31,245 nt of DNA from a virus: the IMG/VR virus record IMGVR_UViG_3300021087_000049, positions 1-31,245 of that record; one strand, written 5' to 3'. The notes under the pieces were generated by a model, which was given only the letters and a program-made list of their open reading frames with translations, had not been told where the DNA came from and searched no databases. Shown here in pieces: positions 3,368 to 23,967 of this stretch (within the stretch, counting starts at the first letter, position 1; every line of letters begins with the position of its first letter). The position numbers and the translations under genes are program-made.

Positions 3368-6300
3368 ATGGCTAGATCAGCCCCAAAGTTTAAGAGATTT
3401 ATTGAATCGATAACTATTACCAACGCAGGCGGTAACTATTCATCGATTCCATCAGAGACTGAGATTTTTATCTCTGCGCCTAAAGGATCTCCCGAGTCTG
3501 ATCAAATACAAGCAGTCGCCACATTAGATATTCAAAATGGTAGTATCGCATCTATCACTATGACTGAGGTCGGTGATGGATACGGGAATGGTAATATTCT
3601 CCATCAGGTCTATATACGATCTGGTATCGGAATTGGGACTGCATCTCTAACAAATACCACGACTGCTGATACTAGAAGGCAAGCTGGGTCATACCCAAAC
3701 ATTGCCATACAATCTATGAAAGCAGGCACAGGGGCAACTGCTAATGTTGTTGTTGACTCTAATGGTGCTGTCACTTCTGTAGATGTTATAACTTCTGGTT
3801 CTTCCTATATGGAAGGCGAAACTGTCACAATTACTGATACCTCTATCGGTGGTGTGGATAATGCTCCAGATATGACTTTCACGGTTGCTCAAAACATTGG
3901 TGGCGGTAGTGGTGCTATCCTGACGCCAGTTCTTCAGACGATTGCTCGCGCTCCTGGATATTATCACGACAGCATGCGCTACATCACTGACAGCCAGATT
4001 CCCGATTTTATCAGCGATGAATATCCAAATTTCGCCAGATTCATTAAAGATTATTATGCGTTTCAAGATCTCAGTCATGAGGAGTACCATGATTTAAACA
4101 TTACTAATGGTGAAGCATTATATAGTCCGAATCACCTCCTCCAAGAGATGATTGACAAGATAAATCTTGATCACAACGATCCCGATTTCTTAGAACCAAT
4201 GCTGCAACAATATGCGATCGATTTCCCGCAGACTGCTTTGGTAGACAAAAGATTATTAATTAAAAACATCTCTCAATTTTTTGAAGCTAAAGGTTCAAGG
4301 AGAGGTGTTGAAGAATTCTTTAAGTTGATGTATAACGAGGATGTTGAAGTATTCCTTCCATCTGAGTTTATCCTTCGACCTTCCGATGGTATCTATAACA
4401 AAGAGTTGACCATCAAGGCATACGCTAATACAGAAACATCCCCAGTTCCAGATCCTCTCAGCCTTAGAGGTAGGCGTGTTGATGTTCATTATTATGAATC
4501 CACAGCATCTATTACCGTAAGAAAGGTGATCAACAGCTCTGTTACACGTGTTAAACAGATTGCATATAGCGCACCAGCTGCATTTGAAATGACTCTAGAT
4601 CTTGCTGGAGATACAATAATTCCAGGACAGGGTGTTGAGGGTTCATTGACTGCTGTTATTGGCGGTAAGATCGCGACTGTTGGAACGATCGGTGCAGCCG
4701 ATGCACTTAGAACGGCAGGAACTTATGCTGTAACAACATTTACTACGAGCGGAAATGGTACTGGTGCAGCATTTAGTATTGTTGTAAATGGATCTGGTGC
4801 AGCTGCAGTGTCAGTCACAACAGTTGGTAATAACTATGCACCAGACGAAACCATTACAGTCCAAGACGCACAGCTTGGAAGTGGCGGTGGTGCTGCTCTG
4901 ACCTTCAAGGTCGCAACTATTACAGAGGGTAAGATCTTCTCAGTAACGATTTCTGATGGCGGTGCTGGTTATTCAGCCAACCCTTCTGTTATTGTGCAAC
5001 CTAATGGTGCTGACACAATCTCTACAACCGCAGTTATTGATACTAGATTGACGAGCGGCTCGATTTCTAATACAGTGTTTGTCAATAATGTGCAAGGTGT
5101 TGGTTACAATAATGTCCCTACCCTAATTCTGAATACTGATCTTGTTCGTTCTTGGATCGGTCTTGAAGGTGCTACAGACGTTATTGACAATAAAACTGCA
5201 TTCCTGACAAGAGTTCTAAATTCTGTTGCGCTAAAAACTAATTCAGCTGCAGCCAATGGCGGGTTTGTTGTTGGTGAAACATTTAAGGTTTCTGAGACTG
5301 GTGACATCCTCGGTGTGTATGCCATTGACTATTTTGCTGGTGACTATACCCTCACTGGTATTGATAATAATGCGCTGGTTAGAGTTAAGACTCTGGATAC
5401 GAGTAATTACCCGACTGTTGTCGAAGTAATCTCAACAGGTACTGGTTTCCAAAGAGCATCTTTCGATTTTATTCTTCGTTCAGCAACGAATGAAACATCA
5501 ACAATTACTTGTGCAACTGGTTTCTCACACACATATCCAGGAAACTTCAAGAACTCTCGTGGATTCCTTTCTGATGCAAACAAGATTCAAGATAATGCTG
5601 TATACCAGAACTTCTCGTATCAGATTAAGACTTCCCGACCCAAGACAGAATGGGGCGAGTTACTAGATCGAATTGCTCACCCTGCTGGTATGATTGCATG
5701 GACTGACCTGCAAATCAACCAAACGGTCGATATGGGCGCAGACTTCAATGCCCTACCAGACGTGATTGTATTCCGCTTATTTGCTGAAGTTGAGACTCCA
5801 CTTATTCAGGATGCTCCAGTCTTGTTCTTCCACAAACCAGCAATCACTGATTCTGTGGATTGGTCTGATCAGAGAACAGGTGCATCTGATGATACAATCT
5901 TGTTGTTCCCACATCTTGGTAAGGTTGAATCCGTATCAGCCATTGATGCAGTTGACAAGTTTGATGTCACTATGGCGAAAACTGACTCTGTTGATTGGTC
6001 TGAGGCTGTTGCTAAAGAAAGTCACTTACCAGCTGTCGCTGATTCGGTTGATTGGTCTGAACTTGTTGTCCTCTTACTTGTAATTCTAAGAGAACCAATT
6101 GATAGTGTAGATTGGGCAGAAACTGTCACCTTTGTGATAGAACTAAATAAGACTGATGAAGTAGATTGGTCACAAATTATTTCTCTGGCTCCAGGACTTG
6201 CAAAGACAGATTCAATCGATTTGTCAGAGGCAGTCGCCAAGGATGCAGGTAATGCGGTAACTGATGACCCAACTGTTGACGAATCAAACGTGTTGTTATT

Positions 6301-6418
6301 TACAGGAGCACAAACTGACAGTGCAGGTTGGGGCGAGGCTGGGCAGATTATTGCACAGAATTATGCTGGAGATTACTTTGCCGAAGATTATGTTGGCGAA
6401 GTTAGAACTATTTCCTAA
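3368..6418 (+). CDS. Large baseplate/virion protein in gp7 position
   Basis: This 1016-aa protein occupies the gp7 position between gp6 and gp8; T4 gp7 is 1032 aa. Residues 208-350 hold a core that I recognise from marine T4-like phage structural proteins: SQIPDFISDEYPNFARFIKD, then LLIKNISQFFEAKGSRRGVE and FKLMYNEDVEVFLPSEFILR. Flanking parts (about 15-190 and 440-590) are Gly-rich beta repeats with GGSGY-like motifs that also occur in gp8, the 1995-aa protein and gp15. The C-terminal 165 residues carry at least seven copies of a degenerate DSVDWSE motif, and the protein ends with a Tyr-rich tail (YAGDYFAEDYVGE). A role as wedge protein or adhesin carrier is inferred from position. Orthology to gp7 proper is uncertain; 'virion structural protein' is the safe name. 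Confidence 0.75.
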   Translation: MARSAPKFKRFIESITITNAGGNYSSIPSETEIFISAPKGSPESDQIQAVATLDIQNGSIASITMTEVGDGYGNGNILHQVYIRSGIGIGTASLTNTTTADTRRQAGSYPNIAIQSMKAGTGATANVVVDSNGAVTSVDVITSGSSYMEGETVTITDTSIGGVDNAPDMTFTVAQNIGGGSGAILTPVLQTIARAPGYYHDSMRYITDSQIPDFISDEYPNFARFIKDYYAFQDLSHEEYHDLNITNGEALYSPNHLLQEMIDKINLDHNDPDFLEPMLQQYAIDFPQTALVDKRLLIKNISQFFEAKGSRRGVEEFFKLMYNEDVEVFLPSEFILRPSDGIYNKELTIKAYANTETSPVPDPLSLRGRRVDVHYYESTASITVRKVINSSVTRVKQIAYSAPAAFEMTLDLAGDTIIPGQGVEGSLTAVIGGKIATVGTIGAADALRTAGTYAVTTFTTSGNGTGAAFSIVVNGSGAAAVSVTTVGNNYAPDETITVQDAQLGSGGGAALTFKVATITEGKIFSVTISDGGAGYSANPSVIVQPNGADTISTTAVIDTRLTSGSISNTVFVNNVQGVGYNNVPTLILNTDLVRSWIGLEGATDVIDNKTAFLTRVLNSVALKTNSAAANGGFVVGETFKVSETGDILGVYAIDYFAGDYTLTGIDNNALVRVKTLDTSNYPTVVEVISTGTGFQRASFDFILRSATNETSTITCATGFSHTYPGNFKNSRGFLSDANKIQDNAVYQNFSYQIKTSRPKTEWGELLDRIAHPAGMIAWTDLQINQTVDMGADFNALPDVIVFRLFAEVETPLIQDAPVLFFHKPAITDSVDWSDQRTGASDDTILLFPHLGKVESVSAIDAVDKFDVTMAKTDSVDWSEAVAKESHLPAVADSVDWSELVVLLLVILREPIDSVDWAETVTFVIELNKTDEVDWSQIISLAPGLAKTDSIDLSEAVAKDAGNAVTDDPTVDESNVLLFTGAQTDSAGWGEAGQIIAQNYAGDYFAEDYVGEVRTIS
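5842..6340 (+). repeat. Seven degenerate DSVDWSE protein repeats
   Basis: At protein level (about residues 825-990 of the gp7-position protein) the motif recurs as TDSVDWSD, TDSVDWSE, ADSVDWSE, IDSVDWAE, TDEVDWSQ, TDSIDLSE and TDSAGWGE, spaced about 18-40 residues apart. The DNA copies have diverged (for example gtggattgg, gttgattgg, gtagattgg), so this is an old coding repeat, not a recent DNA duplication. Confidence 0.85.
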
Positions 6419-15837: not shown

Positions 15838-16893
15838 ATGGCTGGTCCAGTAAAAGTAAAAGTTTCGGGAAGCGTAGAACAGGGTCTGCAGGTATTGACT
15901 GCAGCAGAGTTGTATCAGTACGCAGGTCAATTAATACTCGAGAAGTTTGCATCTGTTAATACTGGAACATCTTCTGTGAATGTCACAACAGGAAGTGTTC
16001 CCGCAAACCATGCATCGATTGGAACATTCACAGACAGAAAGCGTAATGATGCGGTTGGTACACACCCTACATCTGCTGGATCTACGACTGTAAATACATA
16101 TACCATGTATCAAAACGAAACTACAAACTCTTCAGCAATCACAACGCCAGTAAGGGTAAATGCTGACGGTGATGTTTTAGAAATGACAGCCGCTGAAATA
16201 AACACAGAAATTTGTGATGAAGTGATCACTTCATATGTTGAACAGCAAGCCACTTCTGCTGGTCAGTATTACCTTTCTGCTTCTGCTCCTTCAGGTGGAA
16301 CTTGGACAAACAGAGGAACAATCTCTGACACCCAAGTAGATGGAACAACCGTCACCAAAACACTCTGGCAAAAAACTGCTGCAACAACCGATACAACTAG
16401 AGTTTCAGGGACTGGGCTCGTCAAGAAACTTGATGATAATTCTTTACAAGAGATGACAGATGTTGAGATTGAAAGTCTGTTCGCTCGCGTTGCAAACAGA
16501 ATTAAAGACAATGATATTGGGAAATTTGTTCTTGCTGAATCGGCTCCAGGAACTGGGACATGGCAGCAAATGGGCGAGATCATGACTGACCAGATGAAAG
16601 ACACAGCATCCTATGCTTATGCGGGGTCTTACACAGGGACTTATACGGGATCTTATGTAGGCGCGTATGCAGGGGCTTATGCAGGGGCTTATGCAGGTTC
16701 GTATGCTCTATTTTTCAGTGGATATATAGGGACAGTATATACAGGTTACTATACTGGATATTACGTTGGTTATTATGCAGGTTCATACACTGGTTCATAC
16801 AGCGGTACTTATGCTGGAACATATAACGGTCTTACCATCATAAGTTCTTCAAGCACTCAAGAGTCTAAACGGCTGTGGATGAGAACTGCCTAA
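15838..16893 (+). CDS. Fibre-like protein with Tyr-x-Gly-x repeat tract, 351 aa
   Basis: Residues 1-255 form a non-repetitive part with two similar segments: YYLSASAPSGGTWTNRGTIS near 144-163 and FVLAESAPGTGTWQQMGEIM near 230-249. Helical MTAAEINTEI and MTDVEIESLF segments precede them, so this part looks internally duplicated. Residues 259-331 are a run of about 18 short units built on Tyr-x-Gly-x, such as YAGSYTGTYTGSYVGAYAGA. A short tail (GLTIISSSSTQESKRLWMRT) follows. No signal peptide or membrane segment is visible. It sits directly after another fibre gene, with AAGGAT upstream. A role as an elongated virion appendage is inferred; the Tyr/Gly tract may be a flexible or amyloid-like stalk. 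Confidence 0.8.
   Translation: MAGPVKVKVSGSVEQGLQVLTAAELYQYAGQLILEKFASVNTGTSSVNVTTGSVPANHASIGTFTDRKRNDAVGTHPTSAGSTTVNTYTMYQNETTNSSAITTPVRVNADGDVLEMTAAEINTEICDEVITSYVEQQATSAGQYYLSASAPSGGTWTNRGTISDTQVDGTTVTKTLWQKTAATTDTTRVSGTGLVKKLDDNSLQEMTDVEIESLFARVANRIKDNDIGKFVLAESAPGTGTWQQMGEIMTDQMKDTASYAYAGSYTGTYTGSYVGAYAGAYAGAYAGSYALFFSGYIGTVYTGYYTGYYVGYYAGSYTGSYSGTYAGTYNGLTIISSSSTQESKRLWMRTA
16612..16830 (+). repeat. Tandem 12-base units encoding Tyr-x-Gly-x
   Basis: About 18 units of roughly 12 bases run through this stretch. Some adjacent units are identical, for example tatgcaggggct twice in a row, while others differ at third positions. The protein reads YAGS, YTGT, YTGS, YVGA, YAGA and so on, interrupted once by ALFFSG. 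Identical neighbours suggest recent slippage or unequal recombination. Confidence 0.85.
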
Positions 16894-16926: not shown

Positions 16927-17382
16927 ATGGAAGTTATCGCATCATCATCAGACAAAGAACGCCCACCACTTTGGAAAGATCCTATCTGGAAAGATAAGAA
17001 CAATCGCCAAGTTGTTGCAAGGCGTTTGACTTTATCAGGCGAATATGCAGTTGTTCATATTGATGCATCTGGAGGTGTCAATAAAGACTTCGATGAAATC
17101 TTAGAAATCTTTGGTGAAGAGGCATTAGACGAATCTACTGCCAAACACAAAGAAGAAGCACGAAGACAAGAGCAGATTCATCGTGAACGCCACGAAGCTG
17201 ATAAGGTTCGTCAAAAACAAGAAGTCTTATTCAATATGAAGCTGGAAGCATTTGAGATCGAAGAAATCAAAAACTCGTCAAACAGAGATCTGAAGAAGCG
17301 TCTTAGAAAAGCAAAGACGCCAATCGAGGTCCAATCCTATGCTACCCTGTTGATACAGGAAGCATTGGCAAATGAAGAGTAA
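16927..17382 (+). CDS. Hypothetical charged helical protein, 151 aa
   Basis: I do not recognise the family. The N-terminal 60 residues include a Pro/Trp-rich start (PPLWKDPIWKDKNNRQ) and a possible small beta segment (GEYAVVHIDASGGVN). Residues 75-130 are extremely charged (HKEEARRQEQIHRERHEADK) and probably form a long helix or coiled coil. It lies directly after the fibre genes, with TGGAG eight bases upstream of the ATG, and overlaps the following glycosyltransferase gene by 11 bases. A fibre assembly helper is possible from position, but nothing in the sequence proves it. Confidence 0.75.
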   Translation: MEVIASSSDKERPPLWKDPIWKDKNNRQVVARRLTLSGEYAVVHIDASGGVNKDFDEILEIFGEEALDESTAKHKEEARRQEQIHRERHEADKVRQKQEVLFNMKLEAFEIEEIKNSSNRDLKKRLRKAKTPIEVQSYATLLIQEALANEE

Positions 17383-18082
17383 TGGTTTTGTCTATGTTGC
17401 TTCAGTAAACAAAGCATTTTACCAAGCAGCACTCCAATCCGCTCAATCCCTCTTAGATTTCTTTCCAGAAGCAAAGATAACTTTGTTCACCCATGAACCT
17501 TGGGTTTGTGATGAGGCGAGGGAGATCTTTGATCAGATTATAACAGATGGTGTTCCGAATCACATAAGAGCAAAACTCTGGGCATTGTCGAAGTCTCCTT
17601 ATGACGCCACATTATATGTTGATTGTGATACTCTGATCAACAGCGAGGAAATATCTGGAGTATTTGATCTCCTTGGTGATAGTGATATTTTGTTTACGCG
17701 CAACAGACCATACAATGCCAAAATAACAAAACTATCAGAAACTGAAGAAATGATATATCACTGCGGTTTGTTTTTATATAGAACCGAAACGACCAAAGAT
17801 TTGATGAATAGTTGGTATAGGTGGTATCTTGAACAAAACGATCCTCGATGGGATCCCTCTCCATACCCAGAAGAAGTTAGAAAGTGGGACACATTTACTA
17901 TGTGGAATCTCTTGACTAATGGCAATTTTAATGTTATAGTAGGAGAGTTTCCACAACCAGACGCTAAATGGAATTTTGTTACAGGCTATAAACAAGATGA
18001 GTTGATGGGCGAGGAAGCTGTTATACAACACTATACAATCCCAACCGAGAGAATTATTGGTAATGAAATTTATAGACCTTAA
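17372..18082 (+). CDS. GT8-like glycosyltransferase, 236 aa
   Basis: The protein has the general layout of GT-A fold, family-8-like glycosyltransferases. The N-terminal strand/helix unit (FVYVASVNKAFYQAALQSAQ) is followed by ITLFTHEP, and a DxD metal/nucleotide-sugar motif occurs at residues 84-86 within TLYVDCDTLIN. The segment HCGLFLYRT (about 130-138) and Trp-rich parts follow. Such enzymes transfer a sugar from a nucleotide-sugar donor using Mn2+; donor and acceptor here are unknown. The start at 17372 overlaps the previous gene by 11 bases and the stop overlaps the next gene by 20 bases, indicating translational coupling. The sequence differs clearly from the four related glycosyltransferases on the opposite strand. 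Confidence 0.8.
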   Translation: MKSNGFVYVASVNKAFYQAALQSAQSLLDFFPEAKITLFTHEPWVCDEAREIFDQIITDGVPNHIRAKLWALSKSPYDATLYVDCDTLINSEEISGVFDLLGDSDILFTRNRPYNAKITKLSETEEMIYHCGLFLYRTETTKDLMNSWYRWYLEQNDPRWDPSPYPEEVRKWDTFTMWNLLTNGNFNVIVGEFPQPDAKWNFVTGYKQDELMGEEAVIQHYTIPTERIIGNEIYRP

Positions 18083-18671
18083 TACTGAGATACTAGAGAT
18101 TCTTGAAGAACATAGTGATTGGTTTTTTAAGCAAGACCTCTCAGAACTCTATATCGACGACCATGGTGATTCTACTGCTGAACATTCTCAGTCGTATGAA
18201 TACCTCACAGAAATGCTCACAAAGACAATGGGTAAGGAAGAAGGGCAACACGCTGGTCCACCAGAAGTTGTTCGTAATGCCCACTTTGGTGTTGGTGCTA
18301 GATCCCCAGAAAAATTCAAAAAAGAATCCCAGAGATTAAATGACACACTTGTTAAATATCTGGGTGCAAGGCATAGTGCTGTTCATGTCTACTATCCAGA
18401 AGATGGATTTATGGGGTGGCATAATAACTGGGATGTTCCTGGATATAATATTCTCTTAAATTATAATCTTGGGGATGGATACTTCCAGTTTTGGGACGGA
18501 GAAATAATCCACACTCTTCCCGATTGGAAAGGTTGGTCTGCTAAAGTTGGATATTATGGCGGTAAAGAGGATCCAGTTTGGCATTGTGCTGGTGGTGGTC
18601 CAAGAATTACTCTGGGGTTTGTTATCCCTGATGAGGGAATGTGGGAAATGATGATCGAGGATCTTACTTAG
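18063..18671 (+). CDS. 2OG-Fe(II) oxygenase-like protein, 202 aa
   Basis: The C-terminal half resembles the double-stranded beta-helix of 2-oxoglutarate/Fe(II) oxygenases. It has HVYYPEDGFMGWHNNWDVPG, with His120 as likely first metal ligand, and VWHCAGGGPRITLGFVI, with His174 as distal ligand and Arg181 as candidate 2OG-binding residue. In the usual HxD/E...H triad the acidic residue is replaced by Asn122 (HNN), so activity is uncertain. Such enzymes hydroxylate proteins, nucleic acids or small molecules and are common in marine phages. I chose the ATG at 18063; a TTG at 18057 is also possible. The gene overlaps the glycosyltransferase by 20 bases, and its stop overlaps the tail of the convergent methyltransferase gene. 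Confidence 0.65.
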   Translation: MKFIDLNTEILEILEEHSDWFFKQDLSELYIDDHGDSTAEHSQSYEYLTEMLTKTMGKEEGQHAGPPEVVRNAHFGVGARSPEKFKKESQRLNDTLVKYLGARHSAVHVYYPEDGFMGWHNNWDVPGYNILLNYNLGDGYFQFWDGEIIHTLPDWKGWSAKVGYYGGKEDPVWHCAGGGPRITLGFVIPDEGMWEMMIEDLT

Positions 18672-19332
18672 ATCCGATTACCATAAATCGATCATATTTC
18701 TTTTGTCCATCCCACGAGTAATATGTTTGTTCTCGTTGTCCCGAATAATATATCTCATCTAAATCAATCTGCTCTTTCAAGTCTTCAATAGAGTCTACGC
18801 AGTTGATACCATACATCTCTTCAATAACATTACTATTTTGACAAGCAAACAATGCCATTGGGTTCTTCGTTTGAAGTTCTTTGAGCGGATACATTTGCTC
18901 GGTGTTGATAGCGATTACAACATCTGCGTCAATCTTATTGAGTTCGTCAAACGCAAATGGGATGTCTAGATTGTGGTGGCGAATCTTCACAAACTTCTCT
19001 TGAGAGTAATGTTTATGCATTATCTTGGATAAGTCTAATGCCTCTTTGTCTAAGTCGACTAGGTGCAACTCTCCGATATCGAGGTTCTCGCAGAGGAGGG
19101 GGACGAGAGGCATCCCCAACCACGAATTGAGTACCAATACCTTAATCTTCTCTTGTCTAGCGCAGTTGTCAATATTTTTCTGTAGTTCTTCAACTAACCA
19201 CTCTGCTGCCTCAACATGGTTCTGTTCAAAACACTGACGAAGGTCAGATATTTTATGCGGTGCTTTCTTCTCAATAAAGTAGAATGCCTCTCCCCAGAAC
19301 TTATAGTTTGCTAAAAAATTAGATTTAAGCAT
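18664..19332 (-). CDS. SAM-dependent methyltransferase-like protein, 222 aa
   Basis: The fold pattern suggests a class I (Rossmann) methyltransferase. A glycine-containing motif-I region is at about residues 64-80 (IKVLVLNSWLGMPLVPLL), an acidic end of strand 2 at LHLVDLDKEALDLSK (89-103), and a strand-4-like segment DADVVIAINTEQMYPL further on. An N-terminal helical region precedes it. The motif-I glycine pattern is atypical (NSWLGMP instead of GxGxG), so substrate and even activity are uncertain. It is the last gene of the - strand cassette. Its ATG overlaps the desaturase stop by 8 bases, and its stop codon lies inside the end of the convergent oxygenase gene. Confidence 0.6.
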   Translation of the reverse strand: MLKSNFLANYKFWGEAFYFIEKKAPHKISDLRQCFEQNHVEAAEWLVEELQKNIDNCARQEKIKVLVLNSWLGMPLVPLLCENLDIGELHLVDLDKEALDLSKIMHKHYSQEKFVKIRHHNLDIPFAFDELNKIDADVVIAINTEQMYPLKELQTKNPMALFACQNSNVIEEMYGINCVDSIEDLKEQIDLDEIYYSGQREQTYYSWDGQKKYDRFMVIGSK

Positions 19333-20044
19333 CTTTTATTACCTTCACAATAGGTTTTATAATAAACCCCTTTTCATAATTTTTAGGGTATTCATGATGA
19401 TGGGCATGATATCCTTCACCAAGGGTAACTATATTTTGCCAAAAGCTGTCTTTCGGTTCACCATTAACGTGGTTATTTACAGTAATCATCTGCGCCAAAA
19501 ATGCATGCGATGTAGGTATTACCCATAAGTAGAATAGATAATTCATACCACCAAGTAAATAAACCAGTGATGCATAAGAAAATATAATAAAATATTTGTT
19601 GTTGAACAAAAACATATGCCATTTCTTTTTAATTAAACGAGCTGACACTGCCGAAGGTGCAGCTGCATATGATCTATGAAAAACAAAAAACCAATTTTTC
19701 CAACCCAAGTATTTCGAACTATGTGTGTCTAATTCAGTATCTGAATGTTTATGGTGATGCCAATGAGCAGCAGCCCATTCAAATGGACTCAGCCATGTTG
19801 ACAGCACAACCAATAAAGATAGAAGTTTTTCTTTCGTGTAAGAAATGCGAAAAGATCTATGAGTAAAATATCTATGTGCGCTTACCGCTACTCCTAAACA
19901 GGTGAATACAAAACAAGCTACTAGAGAGGATATTACACCTAACATCGTATGCTCAGCTGTAACCACAAACCAGATTGCTGGTATTATGAAAAGCTGACCT
20001 ATCGTCATCATCGCTTGAGGTAAAATCATCTTAAATTTTAACAT
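19325..20044 (-). CDS. Membrane fatty-acid desaturase (Delta9 acyl-lipid/acyl-CoA type), 239 aa
   Basis: All three histidine boxes of integral membrane di-iron desaturases are present: HRYFTH (57-62), HWHHHKH (94-100) and GYHAHHH (211-217). NNHVNG (190-195), matching the conserved N-x-x-H-x-x-G segment of Delta9 desaturases, is also present. Hydrophobic segments at about 14-55, 75-92 and 150-185 fit four membrane passes. The enzyme would introduce a double bond into a fatty acyl chain in the host membrane using O2 and an electron donor such as ferredoxin. I chose the ATG at 20044, not the upstream possibility, because the extension is not desaturase-like and this start overlaps the previous stop by 14 bases. 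At 239 aa it is shorter than most cellular homologues but has every box. Confidence 0.9.
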   Translation of the reverse strand: MLKFKMILPQAMMTIGQLFIIPAIWFVVTAEHTMLGVISSLVACFVFTCLGVAVSAHRYFTHRSFRISYTKEKLLSLLVVLSTWLSPFEWAAAHWHHHKHSDTELDTHSSKYLGWKNWFFVFHRSYAAAPSAVSARLIKKKWHMFLFNNKYFIIFSYASLVYLLGGMNYLFYLWVIPTSHAFLAQMITVNNHVNGEPKDSFWQNIVTLGEGYHAHHHEYPKNYEKGFIIKPIVKVIKDA

Positions 20045-20705
20045 CTTCACTTTTTCCCATTGAATCAAATAAACAAATATATGGCATTTCTCTATAGACG
20101 TGCCGCTCGGTGTCTTGTGGATATACATAACCCTGATTGAAACTATAGACCCAACCAAATGGAAACAGCTTCATAGGAATTATGTTTTTATCACAAAGGA
20201 AATTATCAATTCCCCTATAGTGCCACATAATTTGTTCCTTGTATTTATCAAAGAACTCCCACAGCTTTTTACTGTCGAATGAATCGTTCCACCGCAGAAC
20301 ACTCGAGTTTATGTCGCTGAATTTATGCGGGACGTGTTTGGTTTCCTCGCGCATCGTTTCAATATCGTGCCACCAAGTCTTTACGATACCAAGACAGTTT
20401 TCTGGATCGAACTCTTCAAATACAGTTATGTCCTGTTGAATGAGAATATCGAGGTCAAAGAAAAGTTTCTCCCCTTCCTGCTCAACCAGAGGTGAGAACA
20501 GATACATTTTGTTCCACCATTTCTGTAAATCATTTCCTTCTGGTATAAGTATCGGCTCAATGAAGTCTTTGAGACCAGTCGGGTCGTCAGTTATACAATA
20601 TACTTTGCGGTCTGCCTCTGGGAAATCGGCTGCAATATCGTATGCAATCTTGTTTACATATTCAGAGGAGTATTTGTCTCCCCATTTCACTGTGTAGATA
20701 TTCAT
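20031..20705 (-). CDS. Glycosyltransferase-like protein, 224 aa
   Basis: This is one of four related - strand glycosyltransferase-like proteins. The shared N-terminus is YTVKWGDKYSSEYVNKI, followed by VYCITDDPTGL and a DxD motif at residues 84-86 in KLFFDLDILIQ. Further shared features are INSSVLRW, HYRGIDNFL and FGWVYSFNQGY. The layout fits a GT-A fold enzyme that transfers sugar from a nucleotide-sugar; the acceptor is unknown. The start overlaps the previous gene as ATGA and the stop overlaps the desaturase start, so translation is probably coupled along the operon. Confidence 0.75.
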   Translation of the reverse strand: MNIYTVKWGDKYSSEYVNKIAYDIAADFPEADRKVYCITDDPTGLKDFIEPILIPEGNDLQKWWNKMYLFSPLVEQEGEKLFFDLDILIQQDITVFEEFDPENCLGIVKTWWHDIETMREETKHVPHKFSDINSSVLRWNDSFDSKKLWEFFDKYKEQIMWHYRGIDNFLCDKNIIPMKLFPFGWVYSFNQGYVYPQDTERHVYREMPYICLFDSMGKSEDVKI

Positions 20706-21127
20706 CTAACGAAATCCGATTCTGCCCATAGAATATTTTTGCGTAAATGTTTGGTGCTGAATCGATGTTCTCGTTTATTGTAGTATATTTCGATTCCTTT
20801 CCTATCGCAAATCCAGTCTCCTGTGAATGAAGATCTCTCATATTCTTCGCCAATTATTCTTACATTGATCGGATATAATTCCAAGATATCTTCTAACTCG
20901 TTCTCCGTCGCATAAGGTATAATTTCATCGACATACTTCACTGCCTTCAGTTGCGTGTATCGCTCAACCATATTCTGGACAGGTTTGCCTTTCTCTGATC
21001 TTTGGGTACTCGGGTCTATGTGTAATGCACATATCAAATAATCGCATTGAGTTTTTGCTTCCTCTAACATTTGAACATGACCAGCATGTAGTAAGTCGAA
21101 TGCGCTTGCAGTGAGTCCTATCTTCAT
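20702..21127 (-). CDS. Cytidylyltransferase-like nucleotidyltransferase, 141 aa
   Basis: The protein matches the cytidylyltransferase-like family (glycerol-3-phosphate, ethanolamine-phosphate or sugar-phosphate cytidylyltransferases). The N-terminal GLTASAFDLLHAGHVQMLEE contains the HxGH nucleotide-binding motif at residues 14-17. It is followed by CDYLICALHIDPS and, near the C-terminus, the HRFSTKHLRK segment resembling the RxxxISTT(S) motif. Members join a phosphorylated small molecule to CMP or AMP, making an activated donor such as CDP-glycerol. Here it could supply a donor for the neighbouring transferases; the substrate is unknown. The ATG at 21127 overlaps the previous stop as ATGA; a TTG two codons earlier is less likely. 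Confidence 0.82.
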   Translation of the reverse strand: MKIGLTASAFDLLHAGHVQMLEEAKTQCDYLICALHIDPSTQRSEKGKPVQNMVERYTQLKAVKYVDEIIPYATENELEDILELYPINVRIIGEEYERSSFTGDWICDRKGIEIYYNKREHRFSTKHLRKNILWAESDFVR

Positions 21128-21924
21128 TTCCAATGCTCCAGTAATCTTGGGTCTGCCAATTCGTCTTGTTTTGTTTTACCTCTAGATCCATCTTCAAATG
21201 GTAAAAGGTCTACATTAAATACGCAGAGAATACAATTCTCTCTATAGATTCCTACGTTTAAATCATCTTCATCCCAAGAGCGTCCACGGTTGTACGAGTA
21301 TGCCATCCAACTCGGGAAATAATCCCATAACTCTTTCCATCTCCAGCTGTGGTAGTTATCAGTGCCGTCTGTGAATGTAAACCAAATCTTTTCCTGATGT
21401 TCTAATACATCATTCCATATAGGTTCACACTGGTCGTCACTCCAAACCTGACAACTTCCGTTTGTGAATGCACCATGGGAAAGTTTGAAGCGACGAGTAT
21501 CCATGGGTCTTGGATCTTGCCACCAAGAACGCATCTTGGTCGGTTGCTCCATATTGTAAGTGATGATTGGTGTTAGATCGTTTTGAATGATAACGTCTAA
21601 GTCTAGAAAGACGAAACGCCCGTGTGGTTTATCGTCTGCGAAATTATGGGTATTAAAAACGAAAGTCTTTGCACGATCCCAACAGCGAGCCATTCCATAC
21701 TTGTAATCGTCCAAACCGAACCAATACTTAGGGTGAATATCAGGAATATCTGGAAAGGGGATGACCTTAACATCAGACTGAAGACCCACACTGTCATCAG
21801 TGTAACAATAGAAGTGAAAGTCAAACTGATCAGGGCAGTTTCTACGAGCCATGTTACATAGGCGATTGACAAAGTGTGCACCATACTTTGTGCCCCATTT
21901 AGCACAGACGAAATTTACACGCAT
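21124..21924 (-). CDS. Glycosyltransferase-like protein, 266 aa
   Basis: This member of the - strand glycosyltransferase group has VNFVCAKWGTKYGAHFVNRL at the N-terminus, then FYCYTDDSVGL, a DIHPKYWFG segment shared with the neighbouring 466-aa protein, and the DxD motif at about residues 108-110 (FVFLDLDVIIQ). Further shared motifs are AFTNGSCQVWSDD, FTDGTDNYHSWRW and YSYNRGRSW. The C-terminus ends LADPRLLEHW. I chose the ATG at 21924, which overlaps the preceding stop by 10 bases, over an in-frame TTG at 21933. The enzyme probably uses a nucleotide-sugar donor with a divalent metal. Acceptor candidates are virion fibres, host surface glycans or a lipid, none proven. Confidence 0.75.
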   Translation of the reverse strand: MRVNFVCAKWGTKYGAHFVNRLCNMARRNCPDQFDFHFYCYTDDSVGLQSDVKVIPFPDIPDIHPKYWFGLDDYKYGMARCWDRAKTFVFNTHNFADDKPHGRFVFLDLDVIIQNDLTPIITYNMEQPTKMRSWWQDPRPMDTRRFKLSHGAFTNGSCQVWSDDQCEPIWNDVLEHQEKIWFTFTDGTDNYHSWRWKELWDYFPSWMAYSYNRGRSWDEDDLNVGIYRENCILCVFNVDLLPFEDGSRGKTKQDELADPRLLEHWK

Positions 21925-23315
21925 CTTCCACAAGTCTCTTTACAAATTTTCAAATGGTCTTTCTTCAGACTATCATTATAACAATCAAAGTCTGCATTAT
22001 ATACAATATCCTTCAATGGGAAGGACTTAGCGTTATTGTATTTAGGATTGTATGGGTAGTCGATTGGATGAAGTGGATATAGTCTATTTTCTAGGATATC
22101 TCTCGCCATATACGAACAAGGGAACACATTTCCCTTTGCATTGATGTAAACCATATTGTCGTTTCTGGCTTCACAGTCAATGACCCACTTTTCTTCTTTT
22201 GTAACATTCCTATATTCTTCTTTTTGTTTAAACTTCTTGATATTCTCTCTTGTTACAAGTTCTTTTTCCTGTTCAACTATGGGTCTCCCCAGTTTATTGA
22301 TTATGTGTAAACCAAAATCTATTGGTGGTTGTATCACCTGTGTACCCTGTTGCTCGAACCATTCTACAATTTTGAAATAATCTTTACACCGATTCGGGCG
22401 AGCGAGTGTTGTGAGTAATGTAACATATTCTGGTGGATCTTTGAATATCCTCTTCACATCTTCAATTGTTAGTTCGTCGTCTTCAACGAACAGATCGTTG
22501 AATTGATTTTTAGTGTCATTGTATTTGTTTGATAGTTCTAGAACCACTCGAGTCGGGACATCCTTATACATATCATATTTACCGTACCAGTGATTGAGTA
22601 GGACTGGATCTTCTAACTCCTCAATAGAGATAGACTCATCGTTTGTTATGTAATTCTGGTTGAACAAAGCGAGTTTGGCATCATATTTTGTATCTTGGTA
22701 ATTGTAACTGTAATACCATTCTTCGGGTAGGAAGTTCCAGAATTCATTACCAGCTGGTCTTCTCCACTGATGGTAGTTGTCAGAACCCTTGTAAAATACT
22801 TTGAACACATCTGGATTATTCACGACATCATCATATATTTTCTTCGGTTGTTCAGACCACCAAAGCATGCAGCTAGAGTTGAAGTACGTTCCACGAATAT
22901 CTCTAAACCTTCTATTATTCACCTGCCCTTCAGGTTGCCAATGAGAATATAGGATATGGGGTTGGAATGCAAGTTCGTAAAACTCATCAATTGAGTCTTG
23001 TATGATAATATCTAAATCGAAATAACAGAATGGACCAACATCATTGAGCCATTCTTGTGCATTGAACAGAAGGAATTTGGAACGATCCCAGCAATAGTTC
23101 TCCTCGCCAAACCAATACTTTGGGTGTAGCGGTTCAACATCGGGGATAGGGTGAATATCTACTTCTTCCCGAATCCCATCGGGTTCATCTGTGAAACATA
23201 CCATTCTAAATTGATTGACATAGTTCGCATCAATCATACCATAAAGGTTATTCACATACTCTGCAGAGTATTTGTCACCCCACTTTATCGTCAGAAAAGT
23301 GAGAATAGTAATCAA
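21915..23315 (-). CDS. Glycosyltransferase fused to radical-SAM/SPASM-like C-terminal half, 466 aa
   Basis: Residues 1-250 are a glycosyltransferase-like domain of the same group as its neighbours: TIKWGDKYSAEYVNNL, PLHPKYWFGEENY, DxD at 100-102 in FDLDIIIQDS, and GSDNYHQWRRP. Residues 285-466 are different. IEDVKRIFKDPPEYV and DYFKIVEWFEQQGTQV resemble the middle of radical SAM domains, and VYINAKGNVFPCSYMARDI with Cys381, Cys400, Cys445 and a terminal CKETCGRC (Cys458, 462, 465) resembles a SPASM iron-sulfur auxiliary domain. The N-terminal radical SAM CxxxCxxC loop is missing. No ATG lies near the homologous N-terminus; a TTG at 23315 is the likely start (a CTG at 23291 is an alternative), overlapping the upstream gene by 41 bases. 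Confidence 0.7.
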   Translation of the reverse strand: MITILTFLTIKWGDKYSAEYVNNLYGMIDANYVNQFRMVCFTDEPDGIREEVDIHPIPDVEPLHPKYWFGEENYCWDRSKFLLFNAQEWLNDVGPFCYFDLDIIIQDSIDEFYELAFQPHILYSHWQPEGQVNNRRFRDIRGTYFNSSCMLWWSEQPKKIYDDVVNNPDVFKVFYKGSDNYHQWRRPAGNEFWNFLPEEWYYSYNYQDTKYDAKLALFNQNYITNDESISIEELEDPVLLNHWYGKYDMYKDVPTRVVLELSNKYNDTKNQFNDLFVEDDELTIEDVKRIFKDPPEYVTLLTTLARPNRCKDYFKIVEWFEQQGTQVIQPPIDFGLHIINKLGRPIVEQEKELVTRENIKKFKQKEEYRNVTKEEKWVIDCEARNDNMVYINAKGNVFPCSYMARDILENRLYPLHPIDYPYNPKYNNAKSFPLKDIVYNADFDCYNDSLKKDHLKICKETCGRCV

Positions 23316-23967
23316 TCCTTAAATTGAAGTCGTGTCTATCTTGACCGTTTAACAGGCAGATACTTGCTCCCTTATGATGCTTCCTACCTCTGGGACTCGT
23401 ATCCGTTTCATAATCAATACCATATGCATAAGAGTATATACTGCCCTTGGGAAACTGTGCAAAGATATATCCGTGTATATGGTATAAGTATTTATCGTCG
23501 CAATCTCGGTATCGTACGAGCCATCTATCTGGGTCTGCGGAGAAGTGCGTGAACATCGACCTCCCGTTTCCTTTGCTCCAAGCAATAACACTAGAGTTAT
23601 AGTCACCACCACCGATATGTGCTTCGAAACCTTCTGGCTTCCAGTACGTCTTACATATGGTGGGTCTTTCTAATCCTGCGTCAAAGAATTCGTCAAGATT
23701 TGGGTTTTGAATGATGACATCTAGATCTAAATATAAACATTGATCTATATCACGCCCTTCAAACATCATCACCTTATTGAATGTTCCCAACTCTGGGTCT
23801 ATTCCTGTGACTGTCTTGACCTTTGGGTCTAACCCACTAGGTGCAGAGTCACAATACAGAACATAATTATACCCCTGACCGTTGGTCGAGTCAACAATAT
23901 TATTAACATCTCTATAAGAATATTTGCTACCGTACAGCAACATAAAAATAGTTTTCATAACAGACAT
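23275..23967 (-). CDS. Glycosyltransferase-like protein, first gene of minus cassette, 230 aa
   Basis: This is the most diverged of the four related - strand glycosyltransferases. It keeps LLYGSKYSYRDVNNIV at the N-terminus, YVLYCDSAPSGLDPKVK, GTFNKVMMF, and the DxD motif at 81-83 in CLYLDLDVIIQNPNL, then DYNSSVIAWSKG and GSIYSYAYGIDY. It would be a GT-A fold sugar transferase. The ATG at 23967 has AGG a few bases upstream, but it also overlaps the -10 box of a strong sigma70-like promoter. If that promoter is used, transcription would begin near the second ATG (23958), giving a protein three residues shorter from a nearly leaderless message. The gene ends 41 bases inside the next gene. Confidence 0.75.
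   Translation of the reverse strand: MSVMKTIFMLLYGSKYSYRDVNNIVDSTNGQGYNYVLYCDSAPSGLDPKVKTVTGIDPELGTFNKVMMFEGRDIDQCLYLDLDVIIQNPNLDEFFDAGLERPTICKTYWKPEGFEAHIGGGDYNSSVIAWSKGNGRSMFTHFSADPDRWLVRYRDCDDKYLYHIHGYIFAQFPKGSIYSYAYGIDYETDTSPRGRKHHKGASICLLNGQDRHDFNLRIDYYSHFSDDKVG

Follow-up and report, generated by a model that had tools for sequence, protein, structure and literature searches.

The window analysed here is the whole stretch of 31,245 nucleotides of IMG/VR record IMGVR_UViG_3300021087_000049, a fragment of a T4-like marine phage whose terminase has ~50% identity to that of Pelagibacter phage Mosig and ~48% to those of cyanophages. In its late structural region, among baseplate, neck, and tail genes, lies an open reading frame with a Tyr-x-Gly-x tract, flanked by the gene for a large phrog_358 protein on one side and by neck genes on the other. 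We refer to the tract protein as NT and to the three genes that follow it, the second, third, and fourth of a cassette, as SM, GT, and OX (Table 1). The position of its gene suggests that NT is likely a virion fibre.

Table 1. Features of the tract protein and its cassette in the window
Feature	Coordinates	Strand	Description	Basis
Tract protein (NT) ORF	15838-16893	+	351 aa	
Three tandem small domains	15838-16611	+	aa 1-258 (~1-100, 101-184, 185-258)	hhalign, AlphaFold2
Left arm	16612-16701	+	leader and seven Y-x-G-x units, Tyr261 to residue 288	AlphaFold2 strand
Turn	16702-16737	+	Tyr289 (last left-arm Tyr) and turn ALFFSGYIGTV, mirror axis Gly295	conservation, symmetry, AlphaFold2 break
Right arm	16738-16833	+	eight Tyr, Tyr301-Tyr329	AlphaFold2 strand
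C-terminal return strand	16834-16893	+	ends ESKRLWMRTA, last strand of domain 3, and stop codon	
SM (cassette gene 2)	16927-17382	+	151 aa, conserved KLEAFEIEEIKNSxNRxLKxxLRKAK region	
GT (cassette gene 3)	17372-18082	+	236 aa, putative GT-A/GT8-like glycosyltransferase; overlaps SM by 11 bases	
OX (cassette gene 4)	18063-18671	+	202 aa, predicted Fe(II)/2-oxoglutarate oxygenase fold; overlaps GT by 20 bases	

Relatives of the tract protein

Relatives of NT are numerous in IMG/VR, ranging from 100% down to ~26% identity. Among 50,697 deposited phages, the cassette was found only in C48C1 (OQ984149; Kyanoviridae, no host given), where the 3347-aa WJE88074.1 (CDS0201) and CDS0202-0204 have the same N-terminal domain, C-terminal strand, and four-gene order, and a (Y/F)-x-(G/R)-x tract as in the window family. 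C48C1 differs in that its tract is ~3000 residues long with inserted domains, and all four of its genes are annotated 'hypothetical protein'. The C48C1 'tail assembly chaperone' encoded upstream of the tract gene was considered as a counterpart of SM and is unrelated to it. Some phages also code for a second, upstream paralogue of NT with its own tract (L009:528-3854, L130:4527-7226, and L137:3299-6112, among others).

Five members of the NT family gave no PHROG match up to an E-value of 1, and Pfam returned sub-threshold matches only, such as glycine zippers; NT thus has no profile match to the known tail-fibre families of either collection. A fold search against PDB and BFVD gave nothing significant, which is no evidence for a new fold, and a literature search on the tract or the cassette found nothing relevant. 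We note that the C-terminal third of a baseplate-region protein of the window (3368-6418, plus strand) contains repeated DSVDW(S/A)E motifs.

Sequence pattern and origin of the tract

A sequence-only reading of this DNA had placed the tract correctly, at bases 16612-16830 (residues 259-331 of the ORF), and had counted about 18 units. We find instead 16 in-phase Tyr residues and 15 Y-x-G-x units, arranged in two arms of eight Tyr (Tyr261-289 and Tyr301-329) that are separated by an aperiodic turn at residues 290-300. The period-4 aromatic chain far exceeds chance expectation, with a longest run of nine against a maximum of six in 20,000 whole-protein shuffles; shuffles of the tract alone reach eight or more at a frequency of 0.00065. 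The report of identical neighbouring 12-base units applies to one pair (TATGCAGGGGCT twice, residues 277-284), and all other units differ.

Between the window and an 80%-identical relative, all of the Tyr/Gly positions (31/31) are kept in the protein, with 17 of those 31 codons changed synonymously, and positions 2 and 4 of the units are conserved in 13 of 30 cases. Because Tyr and Gly are fixed despite synonymous codon change, the pattern is held by selection and is not a by-product of DNA slippage. Fixed Tyr/Gly with variable intervening positions is, moreover, how a beta strand with one conserved and one variable face would be expected to alternate.

The N-terminal part of NT, which AlphaFold2 models with a pLDDT of ~90, consists of three tandem domains, each of which has an 'EMTxxEI' helix and ends in a beta hairpin; hhalign relates domain 2 to domain 3 with a probability of 97.9 (E 3.4e-13) and domain 1 to domain 2 with a probability of 93 (E 3e-7). 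The tract sits at the turn of the terminal hairpin of the third domain, and the return strand matches KTLWQKTA of domain 2. In one relative, L182, a short ending without a tract is found at the same place. These computations show the tract to be an overgrown terminal hairpin of the third domain.

Mirror symmetry and paired length change

Gly295 is invariant in 20 relatives, and both arms are symmetric around it. Simple tracts across the family read as n units, a turn, and n units, where n is 4-24, and all 19 distinct single-turn architectures (4-25 units per arm) have arms equal within two. Regular two-residue bulges are mirrored as well, as in L041, which reads 7-5-5-5-turn-4-5-5-7 (one turn aromatic being counted on the left). 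Among proteins of at most 620 aa, a mirror partner exists for 160 of the 297 phase breaks, compared with 54 ± 8 when block order is shuffled (at most 84 in 2000 shuffles), an excess of ~13 standard deviations. If the spacing of the turn itself, and not the midpoint, is used to locate it, the left and right lengths match to within 0-8 residues in 34 of 38 distinct combinations; the remaining four are (24,457), (78,8), (107,52), and (110,52).

The same pairing is seen in recent length changes. With the turn again placed without using the midpoint, changes in the two arms correlate at 1.0 among close relatives with at least 85% GT identity and are equal within two residues in 77 of 79 pairs; proteins are shared among these pairs, which are therefore not 79 independent events, and many lengths are represented. 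Paired arm changes include +16/+16 (at 99.6% GT identity), -22/-22 (at 97.9%), and +106/+106, and arm length reaches ~278 residues. If the arms pair in register, unit number can change only as matched pairs; the expectation that it differs between close relatives is borne out, but only by matched amounts in both arms.

AlphaFold2, which was not given this symmetry, predicts one giant beta-hairpin with strands at 249-293 and 296-349 and a break at 294-295, the pLDDT being 40-60 mid-tract and high at the hairpin base. Mirror positions sum to 590, and analogy with domain 2 gives ~592, which bears on whether Tyr faces Tyr or Gly across the strands. We conclude that the tract is very probably one long hairpin with paired arms. 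The stacked-beta or amyloid-like stalk suggested in the sequence-only reading survives as extended beta structure with aligned Tyr, as indicated by AlphaFold2 and the mirror symmetry; amyloid-like stacking is not indicated, since the symmetry points to a single intramolecular hairpin. The 3347-aa protein of C48C1 has several non-repeat domains inside its tract, perhaps at hairpin tips, and a long stretch duplicated perfectly in tandem (KTRHRSYLYYSTDTS...GNYSRNFSGQY, two consecutive copies; L011:13986-24029).

A four-gene cassette

The cassette runs in the order tract protein, SM (~150 aa), GT, and OX. We used each protein alone as bait, took the best 80 of its 104-520 relatives, and searched four profiles through all of the fetched loci. 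The 80 OX loci contain 67 NT, 73 SM, and 76 GT genes; the best 80 GT relatives are accompanied by 67 NT, 79 SM, and 80 OX, and the best 80 SM relatives by 71 NT, 78 GT, and 74 OX, with none missing in these three sets where the contig had room. The best 80 NT relatives are accompanied by 62 SM, 59 GT, and 56 OX, with one locus lacking GT and OX. This single exception, L182, has the same synteny and a 281-aa protein without a tract; GT and OX are absent together, and SM is followed directly by a methyltransferase gene and the remaining GT genes, homologues of the other GT genes being present. Joint loss of tract, GT, and OX is thus seen at one locus only. OX is inverted in L071 and L158 and displaced (~1 kb away) in L041, L049, and L164, and is retained in all of them.

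OX paralogues also exist away from any tract. C48C1 has a second OX-family gene between the tail tube and UvsY genes (record positions 18267-18920; L376:18267-18920), and in 20 of 21 IMG/VR loci fetched with this paralogue, the retrieved sequence lacks tract protein, SM, and GT alike. A scan of genome contigs with GT identified two MAG contigs only, in a Bifidobacterium bin and a Sphingobacteriales bin, which are possibly mis-binned phage.

Downstream of the cassette, the minus strand of the window codes for a fatty acid desaturase (19325-20050; PF00487, E 1.6e-11) and, at 20031-23967, for four GT-A-like proteins with DLD(V/I)(I/L)IQ motifs; one of these, of 466 aa (21915-23315), has a Cys-containing end with a weak SPASM match. 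A cytidylyltransferase-like gene lies between the GT genes (20702-21133, minus strand; PF01467, E 5e-14) and possibly supplies an activated precursor.

The cassette proteins

SM is conserved and probably helical, and its position would suit a chaperone or adaptor. In GT, the DxD motif (D84 and D86) and D173 are invariant among 35 relatives, and H220 is nearly so. Pfam matches are weak and below the curated cut-offs (Glycos_transf_2 in 14/35 and Glyco_transf_8 in 6/35), with best E-values among members of 2e-4 for Nucleotid_trans, 4e-4 for Glycos_transf_2, and 9e-4 for Glyco_transf_8; the best PDB profile match is glycogenin, at a non-significant E of 0.11. GT shares with glycogenin and GT8 enzymes the DxD and the surrounding GT-A pattern but has weak sequence similarity to them, and we regard it as a putative GT-A/GT8-like glycosyltransferase, weakly assigned by sequence.

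OX has no meaningful Pfam match, and its profile finds chance matches only among PDB sequences. The AlphaFold2 model (pLDDT 95) places it in the Fe(II)/2-oxoglutarate oxygenase double-stranded beta-helix fold: the 50 best VIA matches all belong to the 2-oxoglutarate (2OG) oxygenase superfamily (Z 8.9-11.7, the top being PiuC, 9qn4, at 11.7), and Foldseek matches human ABH2 at 6.6e-4. Residues H120-x-N122, H174, and R181 are invariant in 33 sequences, and their order, H-x-N...H...R, fits the superfamily, the metal and 2OG roles being assigned by order only. The usual residue at the carboxylate position of the H-x-(D/E)...H motif in these oxygenases is Asp or Glu, and a distal Arg serves 2OG. 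With an invariant Asn at this iron-carboxylate position, the activity of OX may be altered or absent.

Comparison with known systems

A virus-encoded collagen modification system is known in mimivirus, which includes the collagen glucosyltransferase R699 (PMC9546862). The working principle is analogous, in that a repetitive viral structural protein is accompanied by 2OG-oxygenase-type and glycosyltransferase-type modifiers, an analogy of function and not of membership or demonstrated homology of the enzymes. Collagen-like proteins have a Gly-X-Y period of three and form a triple helix, whereas the tract has a period of four, forms a predicted beta-hairpin, and contains almost no Pro or Lys. 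We rejected the tract as a collagen-like, Pro/Lys-hydroxylated protein on its period of four and the lack of either residue in the window tract. Synechococcus phage S-RIM2 YP_007675557.1 also has a tetrapeptide period with Gly and Asn (VTGN repeats), but no aromatic at position 1, no shared N-terminal domain, and no cassette; we set it aside as a relative, and the shared low complexity is probably convergent composition.

Cyanophages code for 2OG-Fe(II) oxygenases, for which a role in modulating the nitrogen status of the host via 2-oxoglutarate has been proposed (PMC3037559); these belong to the same superfamily as OX and also occur in T4-like marine phages. OX differs from them in being tied to one structural gene, in its H-x-N motif, and in its lack of a meaningful Pfam match.

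A model for hairpin modification and its alternatives

We propose that the tract forms a two-stranded antiparallel beta-hairpin on a late structural protein of the virion that is probably fibre-like. The arms would pair in register, such that insertions and deletions survive only if both arms change equally; one face would carry the conserved Tyr/Phe and Gly of positions 1 and 3 and the other the variable residues of positions 2 and 4, often Thr, Ser, or Asn. SM, GT, and OX, translated with NT, would constitute a dedicated maturation cassette that acts on the hairpin as the virion assembles, glycosylating its Thr/Ser-rich face and introducing an oxidation, and the virion would display a rigid sugar-coated arm of ~15 nm in this phage and of much greater length in relatives. 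Overall, we put the probability that this is a hairpin of a surface fibre on which a dedicated glycosyltransferase and oxygenase act at roughly 0.68; its virion location, its oligomer, the enzyme activities, the modified residues, and a role in host contact or protection are presumed in the model. We somewhat favour the broader view that it represents a new class of virion appendage, a register-locked hairpin that grows by paired insertions to ~278 residues per arm and is decorated by its own GT and an atypical (H-x-N) oxygenase.

The idea that the Tyr ladder presents residues for modification fits the locking of the tract gene to GT-like and oxygenase-fold genes, but Tyr is an unlikely general target, since some complete cassettes (L238, L230, and L229) have almost all-Phe tracts; the lowest Tyr content among family tracts is 0.7%. 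The window tract contains no Pro or Lys, and both are close to zero in the family as a whole, which argues against collagen-type hydroxylation within the tract. Thr is the sole hydroxyl residue present at 4% or more in every tract of at least 30 residues; with Pro and Lys scarce and Tyr replaceable by Phe, Thr/Ser of the variable face are the favoured candidate glycosylation sites.

The strongest competing explanation accepts the hairpin but assigns GT and OX a different substrate (another fibre or other virion protein, lipopolysaccharide or another glycan, or a host molecule), the two sharing only the operon with NT. Other GT-A-like genes, encoded on the minus strand, suggest that the sugar chemistry is probably broader than one substrate, and OX paralogues lie elsewhere in related genomes. 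Against this, L182 keeps homologues of the other GT genes and lacks exactly GT, OX, and the tract, and OX is kept even when inverted or displaced. We consider this explanation unlikely, and the dedication of GT and OX to modifying the hairpin probable. Much less likely still, amphipathic hairpins might oligomerise into an aerolysin-type beta-barrel channel through which DNA or protein would pass at the tail tip: hairpins that form barrels would likewise fit the alternating faces and the matched arms, and very weak, non-significant Foldseek matches include aerolysin and anthrax protective antigen, but arms of up to ~278 residues far exceed any membrane span, there is no significant fold match, and a link to glycosylation-type enzymes is not expected. 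Least probable of all is a neutral or phase-variable slippage array with freely drifting unit number, slippage having been raised in the sequence-only reading, for which one can cite the identical unit pair, the family range of tract lengths (~40 to ~3000 residues), and a difference of 54 residues between proteins with identical GT, but which is contradicted by the equal change of both arms between close relatives, by Tyr/Gly fixation despite synonymous change, and by retention of 8+8 Tyr in the window group to ~50% identity.

For the hairpin with paired arms, copy number is constrained by pairing, a clean case in which structure decides what repeat mutations persist. Many 2-oxoglutarate oxygenases without an established purpose are found in marine T4-like phages, and the locking of one such lineage to a single structural protein provides a concrete candidate substrate; the nitrogen-status proposal is not refuted here for other oxygenase lineages (PMC3037559). 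Should it be confirmed that the phage modifies a virion fibre with its own enzymes, this would be relevant to host recognition and to the protection of free virions in the sea.
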